The notes under the pieces: model-generated | The model's database searches: none | Told to the model about the DNA's origin: nothing | What the model saw: only the letters and a program-made list of their open reading frames with translations | Position numbers and translations under genes: made by a program | Shown: positions 14,793 to 25,297 of the stretch, piece after piece | How the letters are laid out: every line of letters begins with the position of its first letter | How positions within the stretch are numbered: position 1 is the stretch's first letter | Origin: a virus | Direction: 5' to 3' (one strand) | DNA length: 39,150 nt | Virus record (IMG/VR): IMGVR_UViG_3300030090_002134 | Span: 1 to 39,150 of that record

Positions 14793-14822
14793 ACAAAAAC
14801 GTAGGGGCGATTAAACCCCTAC
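14793..14822 (-). terminator. Rho-independent terminator after the SSB-like gene
   Basis: On the minus strand a 7-bp stem (14822-14816 with 14807-14801, GTAGGGG with CCCCTAC) has an 8-base loop and is followed by GTTTTTG. It lies 26 bases past the stop of the SSB-like gene, so it probably reduces reading into the genes at 14690 and beyond. Confidence 0.75.
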
Positions 14823-14847
14823 ATTGATGTCTGTTTTTATTTAAAGA

Positions 14848-15087
14848 CTAAAATGGAAGGTCATCGTCTGATTTGCTCGATTTCTTCACATCTTCGTCTT
14901 TTGGTTGAAAAACTCCCCTAAGATTGGTTTTTCCAGCCTTAGTTTTGTTTATCCAAAGAGATGCTTTCATATCTACGCCACCTATTTTAGCGTCTCCAGT
15001 ATAATCTGGGCGATTATCTCCATCGTCTTTGTAACCGTTCTTTAATAGACTCATACTATTGTCTTTCAACTCATAGTTTTGTGCCAT
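14848..15087 (-). CDS. Small SSB-like protein with acidic DDDLPF tail
   Basis: 79 residues. AGGAG lies 9 bases upstream of the ATG. The body has a 'NYELKDNSMSLLKNGYK', 'IGGVDMKASLWINKT' and 'KTNLRGVFQPK' pattern, resembling a small OB-like beta-barrel. The C-terminus ends KSDDDLPF, the classic acidic tip with which bacterial SSBs recruit partners. It probably coats single-stranded DNA during replication or recombination. Its length is well under that of cellular SSBs (about 150-180 residues). A structured leader precedes it and a terminator follows. The SSB role is inference from the tail and fold pattern. Confidence 0.65.
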   Translation of the reverse strand: MAQNYELKDNSMSLLKNGYKDDGDNRPDYTGDAKIGGVDMKASLWINKTKAGKTNLRGVFQPKDEDVKKSSKSDDDLPF

Positions 15088-15109
15088 TTTTCCAACTCCT
15101 ATTGTTAAG

Positions 15110-15177
15110 GGGTGTTAGGTTTTTCAGTTAGCCAACCTATTTGCGTCATCTTTTTACTTAGCAAATGCCCAACACCC
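15110..15177 (-). ncRNA. Structured leader: contiguous three-way junction RNA
   Basis: The whole gap between the nuclease gene and the SSB-like gene folds as three adjacent stems: P1 15110-15116 with 15171-15177 (7 bp), P2 15117-15121 with 15134-15138 (5 bp), P3 15139-15144 with 15161-15166 (6 bp), with only a 4-base linker (15167-15170). All pairs are perfect. It ends just before the ribosome binding site of the SSB-like gene. It could be an autoregulatory or ligand-binding leader. The direction is inferred from the neighbouring genes. It is not a terminator, because no U-tract follows. Confidence 0.55.
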
Positions 15178-15181
15178 TTTG

Positions 15182-15571
15182 TTAAAAAATCTTTCCAACA
15201 CTACCCATTAATAACTTAATAGGTATTAATAATATTTTTGATTGTTCATCATCTCCGCCCATTATCATCTTTATCTTTTTTTCTTTGAGTAAATATTTGC
15301 ATATATTTTTTAACTCTTCTACTGGTAAGCAAATCATTCCCTTTACTTTTTTGTCTAAAGATAAAATATGAAACCACCAATCTGACTTAGTCACAGATAA
15401 ACCCGAAGGCTTGTTGCGGCACATAACCTCTATAGCTATGTTACCAGTTTCTATCCACTTATCCCTTTCGGTCTTAACCTCTACTTTACCCTTTGAGTAT
15501 AAAAGTTTTTTCAAACCTTCTTCGTACACCTGTCCAAACTCCAAGTCTAAGTCAAATTTTGAGTTATACAT
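15182..15571 (-). CDS. Nuclease-like PD-(D/E)XK protein
   Basis: 129 residues from the ATG at 15571, which overlaps the stop of the upstream gene. A longer frame to 15616 is less likely because of that coupling. 'EFGQVYEEGL', 'KVEVKTERDKW' and 'TGNIAIEVM' form the pattern of restriction-endonuclease-like phage nucleases (acidic residue, then ExK, then TGN-IE). E31 and K33 are the likely catalytic pair. It probably acts on phage or host DNA in recombination or processing. It sits beside another resolvase-like nuclease. The exact substrate is unknown. Confidence 0.65.
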   Translation of the reverse strand: MYNSKFDLDLEFGQVYEEGLKKLLYSKGKVEVKTERDKWIETGNIAIEVMCRNKPSGLSVTKSDWWFHILSLDKKVKGMICLPVEELKNICKYLLKEKKIKMIMGGDDEQSKILLIPIKLLMGSVGKIF

Positions 15572-15893
15572 CAAGTTTTTCTTTAACAATGGACAACATC
15601 CAAACAAACTTATCATAGTCTATAACCATCATAGCCTTTCCCCTGTCTTCTCTTATAACAACACCATCTTCTTGTTTTTCGGGTTTTAGCCAACTAGCTA
15701 TAGTCTTTCTTCGTTTGCACCCATACCACTTCCCTTCAATTTCTATATCTCCAAGTTCGTGTTGTGCTCCACCCCTATCTCTATTGTAAGCCTCAAGACC
15801 AACTTCCTTTGCGGTGCGAACAGCATATCTTTGCAACTCTGCACCTCGTTGTCTATTACGCCTTCCTTGTCTTACTTTTTTTGGGTCTTTCAT
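15564..15893 (-). CDS. Holliday-junction-resolvase-like nuclease
   Basis: 109 residues. The pattern RRNRQRGAELQRYAV, then RDRGGAQHELGDIEIEG, then WYGCKRRKTIASW and IREDRGKAMMVI resembles the PD-(D/E)XK resolvase-type nucleases of phages, from memory. E19, D49 and K60 are likely catalytic. The usual (D/E)xK is replaced by GCK (58-60), so activity may be altered or use a different acidic residue such as E51. It probably resolves or trims branched recombination intermediates. It overlaps the next gene. Confidence 0.6.
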   Translation of the reverse strand: MKDPKKVRQGRRNRQRGAELQRYAVRTAKEVGLEAYNRDRGGAQHELGDIEIEGKWYGCKRRKTIASWLKPEKQEDGVVIREDRGKAMMVIDYDKFVWMLSIVKEKLDV

Positions 15894-23190: not shown

Positions 23191-23222
23191 TACGTATTTT
23201 GCTATATTTTAAGCTAATTTTA

Positions 23223-23300
23223 CTATACATAATCTAGTTTTCTGTGTTATGTATAGTTCATTTTAATTATACATAATATCTAAATTTGTGTTATGTATAG
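23223..23300. repeat. Two tandem copies of an inverted repeat
   Basis: Copy 1 is CTATACATAA (23223-23232) and TTATGTATAG (23247-23256), a perfect 10-base inverted repeat with 14 bases between. Copy 2 is TTATACATAA (23267-23276) and TTATGTATAG (23291-23300), with one mismatch. The copies are 44 bases apart. They may be operators or hairpins ahead of the structured RNA. Confidence 0.55.
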
Positions 23301-23312
23301 TTATTTTTAGGC

Positions 23313-23364: not shown

Positions 23365-24111
23365 CTAAATACTGTAATGCTCGTTATCACAAGTTGAGCA
23401 CATTCCAGTATTTTGCTCATATAATGTTGACAAATTAGCTTTACATTGTTTACAACTATATCTAATAACTCCACCTAGATATTTTTTCTTTTTCTTCTTC
23501 TTTGGCTTTGTGGGAGAGTGGAGACCGTGACCACCCCAATAATAACTCCCATAATTATAATGAATTGTACATGACTCAAAGGTTTCATTAGAATACCATA
23601 TCCCATTATCCCAAAGACCTTTATGTTCATTACACATTGTATAATTGCCATCATTATCTAAGAAAGCTAGTTTACTGTTACTGCTTATCGCTTCCTCAAT
23701 TAATGCTATTACACCTTGATTACTCAAAAAATCCTTTGGTAATAGTTTTAAGACCGTATCATTAAACATTGATGTATCAGACCTAGTCTTATCATTATCG
23801 ACAAAGTGAATAACTCCATTGTGAGCAAAGCCAAGATTTTGATTAACTTGGAAGGGGTGACAGTTTGATTTATCGGTCAAACCGTGAGTTGTGATTCTGA
23901 AATGCAAGATTGCAGTTGGATTGTCATTCTTAACCATAGCTTGACAATATGAACCCCAAAATTTATCAAAATCAAAAAATCCCTTTCTAATGGTTAATGA
24001 ACCTTTACTAGCGAACATAAAACCCGCCCCATCTGGATTATTTTCAAAACAATTTTGAGCGGTTTTCTTAGATATGAAAACGCCCTTTGGTTTCGTTGCA
24101 ATTATACACAT
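23365..24111 (-). CDS. Class II glutamine amidotransferase with zinc ribbon
   Basis: 248 residues, with GGAGGT upstream. It starts MCII, placing the N-terminal nucleophile Cys at position 2 after Met removal, as in Ntn-type amidotransferases. 'HFRITTHG' (70-77), 'CHPF' (84-87), 'AHNG' (96-99) and 'SDTSMF' complete the class II glutaminase signature. A lysine run is followed by a C-terminal zinc ribbon (CKQC and CSTC). It should release ammonia from glutamine or transfer an amide. It lies 1 base from the amidoligase and should be coexpressed. Glutaminase assignment is strong. The acceptor is unknown. Confidence 0.8.
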   Translation of the reverse strand: MCIIATKPKGVFISKKTAQNCFENNPDGAGFMFASKGSLTIRKGFFDFDKFWGSYCQAMVKNDNPTAILHFRITTHGLTDKSNCHPFQVNQNLGFAHNGVIHFVDNDKTRSDTSMFNDTVLKLLPKDFLSNQGVIALIEEAISSNSKLAFLDNDGNYTMCNEHKGLWDNGIWYSNETFESCTIHYNYGSYYWGGHGLHSPTKPKKKKKKKYLGGVIRYSCKQCKANLSTLYEQNTGMCSTCDNEHYSI

Positions 24112-24112
24112 A

Positions 24113-25297
24113 TTATAATACCTCCAAATTATCAGAATTATACTCTAAATTGACTAAGTTGGTCATATGTTTTTTAGTCATCATGTTTTGAGATTTGGTG
24201 AACATTGGATAGCCTTTCTTGTGAAGAAAAAAACATAAGTTCAAATATGAACTTTGGTGTTTCTTCAAAAATCTAAGATAACTAAGTCTACCTATCTCTG
24301 TTGCGTCTTTCAAGCTTGTCACATCTCCCCAATGTAGCACACTTCTTACAAAATCCATATTTTTTAAAAATGAATTATAATTTAGTGTACCTCTAAAGAG
24401 TCTGAACTCTATTGTGTTTCTAGGGTGTAAGTTGATTGCACTTGACCTATCAAGATACTCTCTTATTTCTCTATAATTACTGTTAGCCATAAATGAAAAT
24501 GGCTTTTTGAAATTATCAAGGAAATACGAACCTAATTTAGGCTTTGCCCATTCATCAAGTGCACTTTCTCGCCTTTGAGAAATATCAAGAATTAATTTGT
24601 AATAATCCTCATTAAAAACCAAAGATAACACCTTATAAAGTGTAGTTGGTTTTATGCTATTTCTTGAGACGTGAACGTGCATACCTGAGTCATTAGCATT
24701 ATGAGAGCGAAATGAATCCTTCCTAAGCATTTTAAATAAGGTCTTAAATACTCTGTGACCGTATTTATTAAAATACTTCCATGTGAAAGGATGAGATACT
24801 ATTTCATTATCACAGGTGCTATCAGATTTAACGTATAATAATTCCTCGTTATTCGTTAAACCTTTACCTAATAAACCTATCATTGATGCAAGTTTATTCC
24901 CGTGTAAGTGGTTATAACCGTCGGTTTCAATCTCAACGCCAAAGTGTCTATATCCTTTGTCTCTCTCAGAAATAATACATTGACCTTTATGAACTCGATG
25001 AAATAAAGAATTAGGTTTTTCACTATATCCTAGAATACACCTAGTATTAGTAATGCAATTCTTACAAACATTGTCATCATTCATACCTAGTCTTTTTCTA
25101 CCACAGGAAACACATCTTTCTAAGTCGTCAAAACAATCATGGCAAATAGGTTGCCTAGTTGAATAGTTCATGTTTAACCCTGTTTCATGGCACCTTTCCT
25201 CACACACAATGCAAATACTTTGTGGAGGTTGGGGATTAATGAACGTTTCAAAGTCACCTTGACTTAGTCTATCCTCTATTGATTTTAATATACTCAT
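24113..25297 (-). CDS. ATP-grasp-type amidoligase with zinc ribbons (Amidoligase_2-like)
   Basis: 394 residues, GAGGT 10 bases upstream of the ATG. Four Cys pairs at the N-terminus (around 29-32, 52-55, 62-65, 78-81) make two zinc ribbons. 'FGVEIETDG' (119-127), 'VKSDST' (156-161), 'SGMHVHVSR' (204-212) and 'NTIEFRLFRGT' (294-304) are the patterns of the Amidoligase_2 family, as I recall. Such enzymes are predicted to use ATP to join a carboxylate to an amine. The peptide or small-molecule substrate is unknown. It is the first gene of a separate operon with its own leader and terminator. Confidence 0.75.
   Translation of the reverse strand: MSILKSIEDRLSQGDFETFINPQPPQSICIVCEERCHETGLNMNYSTRQPICHDCFDDLERCVSCGRKRLGMNDDNVCKNCITNTRCILGYSEKPNSLFHRVHKGQCIISERDKGYRHFGVEIETDGYNHLHGNKLASMIGLLGKGLTNNEELLYVKSDSTCDNEIVSHPFTWKYFNKYGHRVFKTLFKMLRKDSFRSHNANDSGMHVHVSRNSIKPTTLYKVLSLVFNEDYYKLILDISQRRESALDEWAKPKLGSYFLDNFKKPFSFMANSNYREIREYLDRSSAINLHPRNTIEFRLFRGTLNYNSFLKNMDFVRSVLHWGDVTSLKDATEIGRLSYLRFLKKHQSSYLNLCFFLHKKGYPMFTKSQNMMTKKHMTNLVNLEYNSDNLEVL

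Follow-up and report, generated by a model that had tools for sequence, protein, structure and literature searches.

Does the 94-base spacer that precedes a small single-strand-binding (SSB)-like gene in an uncultured phage work as a structured leader RNA and, if so, what might such a leader do? The window, that is, the whole stretch of DNA analysed here, covers 39,150 bases out of a 42,597-base IMG/VR virus record. The large terminase and the portal (P22-like) that it encodes, together with the Pelagibacter phage relatives of the gene upstream of the spacer, point to a podovirus-like phage, probably of marine origin. The main features, all on the minus strand, are the following:

14798–14825, minus: intrinsic-terminator-like hairpin 3' of the SSB-like gene, from the sequence
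14848–15087, minus: P0001, the SSB-like gene, 79 aa, with a C-terminal acidic tip DDDLPF (open reading frame; phrog_18154)
15088–15181, minus: leader RNA of the SSB-like gene, filling the intergenic spacer (sequence reading; match of covariance model R2)
15096–15100, minus: Shine-Dalgarno AGGAG (direct reading; kept in relatives)
15110–15119, minus: 3' arm of the closing stem P1, CCTAACACCC, with 9 nt between its end and the Shine-Dalgarno
15131–15137, minus: conserved word GGUUGGC (RRUUGGY, UA usually next), from the comparison of leaders
15139–15144, minus: 3' arm of P3, GCAAAT, in the window and L095
15161–15166, minus: 5' arm of P3, ATTTGC, the second stem of the first-pass annotation and an optional hairpin, in the window and L095
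15168–15177, minus: 5' arm of P1, GGGTGTTGGG, pairing with 15110–15119
15182–15616, minus: P0002, the upstream gene, 144 aa, phrog_13596 (unknown function), with Pelagibacter phage relatives and a stop codon directly next to the leader

Elsewhere in the window (23365–25297, minus strand), a phage-encoded amidoligase (PF12224, E 2.8e-9) adjoins a class-II glutamine-amidotransferase-like protein (PF13522, E 3.6e-5). Nearby, at 23218–23305, two 44-nt units that are 75% alike, each with TATACATAAT arms, make up a set of nested inverted repeats in an interval devoid of long ORFs, where the covariance model R1 described below also matches weakly.

The leader in the window and the protein encoded behind it

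The first-pass annotation had drawn a gap-free three-way junction of three perfect stems with one 4-base linker, and as a reading of the letters this is exact: positions 15177–15110 of the minus strand run GGGTGTT-GGGC-ATTTGC(16-nt loop)GCAAAT-AGGTT(12-nt loop)AACCT-AACACCC and take up 68 of the 94 spacer bases (15088–15181). The shared GCTAA..AAAAA word that it had seen at both hairpins is also literally there, partly in stem bases. The minimum-energy fold lacks the third stem and extends P1 to 10 bp (GGGTGTTGGG/CCTAACACCC), using part of the AACCT arm. With a folding energy of −19.3 kcal/mol and a z-score of −1.88 (−1.50 with flanks), the minus-strand leader is unremarkable for a single-sequence fold; what places the feature above chance is that P1 is rebuilt with other letters in relatives and that these share the GGUUGGC word.

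The gene behind the leader encodes a protein with a weak profile match to the single strand DNA binding protein family phrog_18154 (E 8.8e-6 for P0001, 2.6e-6 to 1.7e-5 for its relatives), the match being weak in all five members tested. Proteins of this family measure 66–80 aa, and most end in an acidic PF tip (DDDLPF, SDSDSPF, DDAPF, NDSPF), while some end in KKKTPF, which is not acidic. P0001 matched no Pfam family, phrog_18154 being its only match, and hence does not belong to the gp32 family; it had no match among GenBank phages, and a PDB sequence search returned nothing. Its predicted model is four-stranded (pLDDT 74) and has no significant PDB match: the fold comparison is headed by PC4/Sub1 and PUR chains, with no E-value below 0.25 and no Z above 4.1, and OB-fold SSBs are not at its head. 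The predicted fold may thus lean weakly, and without significance, towards the PC4 and PUR single-strand binders.

A closing stem conserved in shape and the word that it encloses

Scanning IMG/VR with the SSB-like protein as a guide yielded about 30 distinct leader-bearing loci, which follow the same plan in different letters. P1 is a closing stem of 10–20 bp that ends upstream of the ATG, mostly 16–29 nt from it. Its arms read GGGGCATTG/CAGTGCTCC in L094, GGTGTTGTACATAAT/ATTATGTATAACACC in L085, GAGGTGGCTCAGT/ACTGAGTCATCTC in L109, GGGCGACCTGATTC/GAATTAGGTTGCCC in L111, TATGATGATTC/GAATCATCATA in L135 and GGGC..ATATAAG/CTTATGT..GCCC in L098. When 12 bp of each arm were anchored in 25 distinct leaders, we counted 116 both-side changes, distributed over all 12 counted pairs. 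In the same leaders, 95.3% of the cells were paired, against 56.3% in shuffled and 35–42% in slid controls, a percentage inflated by the fact that the arms were picked by their pairing. The enclosing helix outperformed all 60 shuffles of its own flanks in 25 of 31 leaders; matching shuffles occurred in L094 (13 of 60), L098 (6), L135 (2) and L116, L117 and L136 (1 each), and L124 had no motif to which this test could be applied. Within subclades, alignments made from sequence only recovered P1 in every one of the four subclades tested, each structure showing one to four both-side changes when counted over the whole of it. RNAalifold found zero pairs on sequence-only MAFFT alignments of the whole set, since the P1 arms are out of register between subclades, so that the cross-group result for P1 depends on arms aligned by their pairing. 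P1 is conserved in shape, not in sequence.

The element enclosed by P1 is kept in its letters. RRUUGG(C/U) is present in 25 of 25 leaders, with an invariant TTGG followed by a nearly invariant C and, usually within a few bases 3' of the word, by UA. Of 12 group representatives, 11 contain TTGGC and nine contain GTTGGC, counts that no word matched in 1000 dinucleotide shuffles. In the window GGTTGGC is unique (15137–15131, minus strand); the first-pass annotation had not singled it out. The L109–L125 clade shares the word with the upstream ORF, where it forms the codons GGT TGG CTA; L098 reads it in a different frame, as GTT GGC (DLVGSS); and in the window it lies outside any gene, which argues that its conservation acts on the RNA. 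The Leu codon after the Trp is always CTA in the L109–L125 clade, although CTA makes up 18% of Leu codons there. In this clade the end of a small upstream ORF doubles as leader RNA, and in its GGGC subgroup the stop codon of that ORF lies inside the 3' arm of P1.

In the predicted folds, L091, L092, L094, L098, L135 and most of L082–L088 carry the word in a hairpin loop, and the window, L089 and much of the L109–L125 clade have it adjacent to a second hairpin. Its predicted accessibility is uneven, and in the window's own predicted fold it is partly paired. The second stem of the window is accordingly one form of a variable insert. Pairing of GUUGGC with the start-codon region, judged by eye, is possible in some leaders and impossible in others, and was rejected; likewise by eye, and with nested folds computed only, we saw no conserved complement of GUUGGC.

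The comparison therefore redraws the structure proposed at first. A structured leader RNA before the SSB-like gene is real, as P1 covariation and the conserved word attest. The three stems are not all kept with compensatory change, and a conserved gap-free three-way junction has to be abandoned: compensatory changes strongly uphold the first stem, partially the second and not the third. For the second stem (AUUUGC/GCAAAU), only part of the family, namely L089 and the L109–L125 clade, offers positional analogues made of other letters, and the third (AGGUU/AACCU) is in conflict with the extended P1 and missing from relatives.

Specificity and distribution of the leader

How closely is this element tied to the SSB-like gene? 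The pooled loci contain 226 unique RRTTGGY sites. Those that combine the word, an enclosing helix with a score of at least 10 and a Shine-Dalgarno and ATG behind number 27, and all 27 are leaders of SSB-like genes, the window included (score 10.0); none stands before another gene, and lowering the helix cut-off to 9 brings in one other site. In the loci examined, the leader is thus associated with the SSB-like gene alone. It occurs a single time in its own record, and GGTTGGC a single time in the window, so we discarded a repeat element or a promoter.

Covariance models built from relatives, a check that the first-pass annotation had put forward, gave a divided answer. R1, built from L082–L088, had as its top five matches in 190 kb L148, L094, L092, L098 and L135, all of them leaders of other groups (E 0.001 to 0.057, E-values being rough for both models), and missed the window leader. 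R2, built from the L111 group, recovered L109, L110, L113, L122, L095 (rough E 0.12) and, as its best match in the window, though a weak one, the window leader (15091–15181, minus strand; 16.1 bits, rough E 0.42); it also gave one apparent false match, L081, at 22.4 bits.

A search of the window and 12 related loci against Rfam returned zero matches at the gathering threshold, be it to glutamine and other marine riboswitches, STAXI or ribozymes, and the known marine riboswitch class that had been considered at first is not supported. A known riboswitch or ribozyme was also rejected at E up to 5, where two leaders retrieved unrelated families and nothing credible. The leader is therefore a real, covarying RNA that is absent from Rfam.

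The gene reaches further than the leader. In L124 and in L150, a relative almost identical to it, the SSB gene is present and both word and P1 are absent; the distant SSB relatives L096, L099–L107 and L138–L140 have no leader and mostly no spacer, and three regions read around distant phage SSBs found via a relative had no such leader. The pattern GGATGA..GGTTGGCGCTA retrieved 65 stretches from IMG/VR, of which only two, both already known leaders, were relevant. In bacterial genomes, a first scan found none and a second one a single Marinimicrobia MAG contig, that of L150, from which the leader is absent. On this contig (DKQR01000126.1), a phage-type SSB gene and the leader region are nearly identical to those of L124, and this near-identity indicates that it is probably viral. 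At the other end of the gene, a GGGG..CCCC hairpin follows the SSB-like gene both in the window (14798–14825, minus strand) and in L014 (3200–3255), which suggests that this gene end is conserved between the two.

A putative operator for the SSB-like protein

The most likely role of the leader is to bind a protein, one of the two roles that the first-pass annotation had proposed. An operator for the SSB-like protein itself is the simplest reading, since a structured element keeps a fixed word beside the ribosome-binding site of that gene, and on balance we incline, with modest confidence, to regard the leader as an autogenous translational operator. P1 would enclose and present RRUUGGY..UA, with its end few nucleotides before the Shine-Dalgarno. 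SSB-like protein in excess of the available single-stranded DNA would bind this element and spread over, or sterically cover, the A-rich ribosome-binding site, thereby stopping its own translation; as replication exposes single-stranded DNA, the protein would leave the leader and translation would resume. The SSB-like protein as ligand, repression upon binding and titration by single-stranded DNA are all inferred. The Shine-Dalgarno is mostly unpaired in the predicted folds of many leaders, and so the RNA would not obviously shut the gene alone, which fits a protein-dependent rather than a built-in block.

The main rival is that P1 serves as an RNase III processing site or mRNA-stabilising hairpin, being cut or shielding the 5' end to leave a short stable SSB mRNA that extends to the terminator. 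P1 does lie between two co-directional genes with a terminator-like hairpin 3' of the second, it is often stacked with an inner hairpin, its shape is kept while its sequence is free, and 10–20 bp with an internal loop resemble in general shape phage processing signals such as those of T7. However, such a role has no need of a conserved GUUGGC, P1 often falls short of the length usual for RNase III substrates, and in L109–L125 the stem overlaps the upstream coding region, all of which makes this explanation unlikely. We consider it quite improbable that the element is addressed by another reader, whether an RNA-binding protein of the host, another such protein of the phage, or the ribosome, for which P1 would be part of a translational standby or coupling device and be opened by ribosomes that finish the upstream gene. 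The upstream stop codon abutting P1 in the window, or inside its 3' arm in the L111 subgroup, and the distance of mostly 16–29 nt between the end of P1 and the ATG would suit it, but coupling would not conserve the GUUGGC word, and one gene family is constant while contexts vary, with P0002 upstream of the leader in some groups, an unrelated small ORF in L098 and L109–L125 and a RusA-like ORF in L135.

Although a structured leader with a conserved core might also recall a small-molecule riboswitch of a new class, the core is very small (about 7–9 nt) and set in a variable architecture, no alternative pairing clearly hides the Shine-Dalgarno and Rfam gives no match, so that we hold this to be highly improbable. 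Least credible is an effect of chance or coding, with ordinary AT-rich palindromes as stems and the word as a by-product of a conserved Trp-Leu in the upstream ORF: taken singly, the window leader does have an unremarkable folding energy (z −1.5 to −1.9), but the covariation and the persistence of the word across reading frames and in non-coding positions disfavour it.

An autogenous operator would have precedents. The SSBs gp32 of T4 and RB69 and gp5 of M13 repress translation via operators in mRNA (PMC535899, PMC3014915), and the comparison with T4 gene 32 made at the outset, with the proviso of a different fold, was apt. In T4 and RB69, as here, a structured leader 5' of a phage SSB gene is followed by a less structured A/U-rich ribosome-binding site, and leader sequence diverges while structure is kept; the gp32-type feature found here is a conserved RNA structure just upstream of the ribosome-binding site of the SSB gene. 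By contrast, the T4 operator is a pseudoknot of about 28 nt, 67 nt upstream, plus UUAAA repeats (PMC535899, PMC3014915), whereas here there is a long closing stem with GUUGGC, the conserved P1 being a plain helix as far as nested folding, the only kind computed, describes it, and the P0001 family is unrelated to gp32. As to UUAAA/UAAA repeats, L082–L088 read AUAAAUAAAGGAG and the window has one UUAA, in a background that is A/T-rich. The gene 43 operator of T4 and RB69 is similar in that a hairpin with conserved loop bases lies near the ribosome-binding site of a replication gene, and differs in being a 16–18 base hairpin with a UAAC loop whose ligand is DNA polymerase (PMC3014915). The STAXI motif is likewise a structured element often found near ssb genes, but it consists of tandem pseudoknots near varied DNA-handling genes (PMC2864571), and the leader has no Rfam match. 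Among PUR proteins, BpuR of Borrelia burgdorferi represses its own translation via its mRNA (PMC4347634) and Pur-alpha binds GGN motifs (PMC4764581). BpuR is, like P0001, a small nucleic-acid-binding protein, the word here can be read as GGU-UGG against the GGN of PUR, and PUR chains head the weak fold comparison, but the likeness in fold does not reach significance (Z 4.1, rmsd 6.5; Foldseek E 0.3) and there is no sequence match. Since Pur-alpha reads GGN and BpuR represses its own translation, recognition of GGU-UGG by a PUR-like protein may be taken as a lead only.

To our knowledge, few single-strand-binding proteins are known to control their synthesis through an RNA operator. How T4 gp32, largely indifferent to sequence, picks out its own message has been stated to be unclear (PMC535899). 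Tentatively, we see here a possible new RNA family of uncultured podovirus-like phages, in which a sequence-free long stem would present GUUGGC, a base-specific word, to a tiny PUR/PC4-like SSB, and which would have evolved independently of T4 gene 32. The leader adds to a group of uncultured phages a structured RNA family that is absent from Rfam, and it joins a minimal protein of 66–80 residues to a stem that varies freely around one short word that is kept. As the stem varies while the word stays, evolution has marked the probable contact site, and the recognition by such a protein of its own message thus becomes directly testable with short RNAs.
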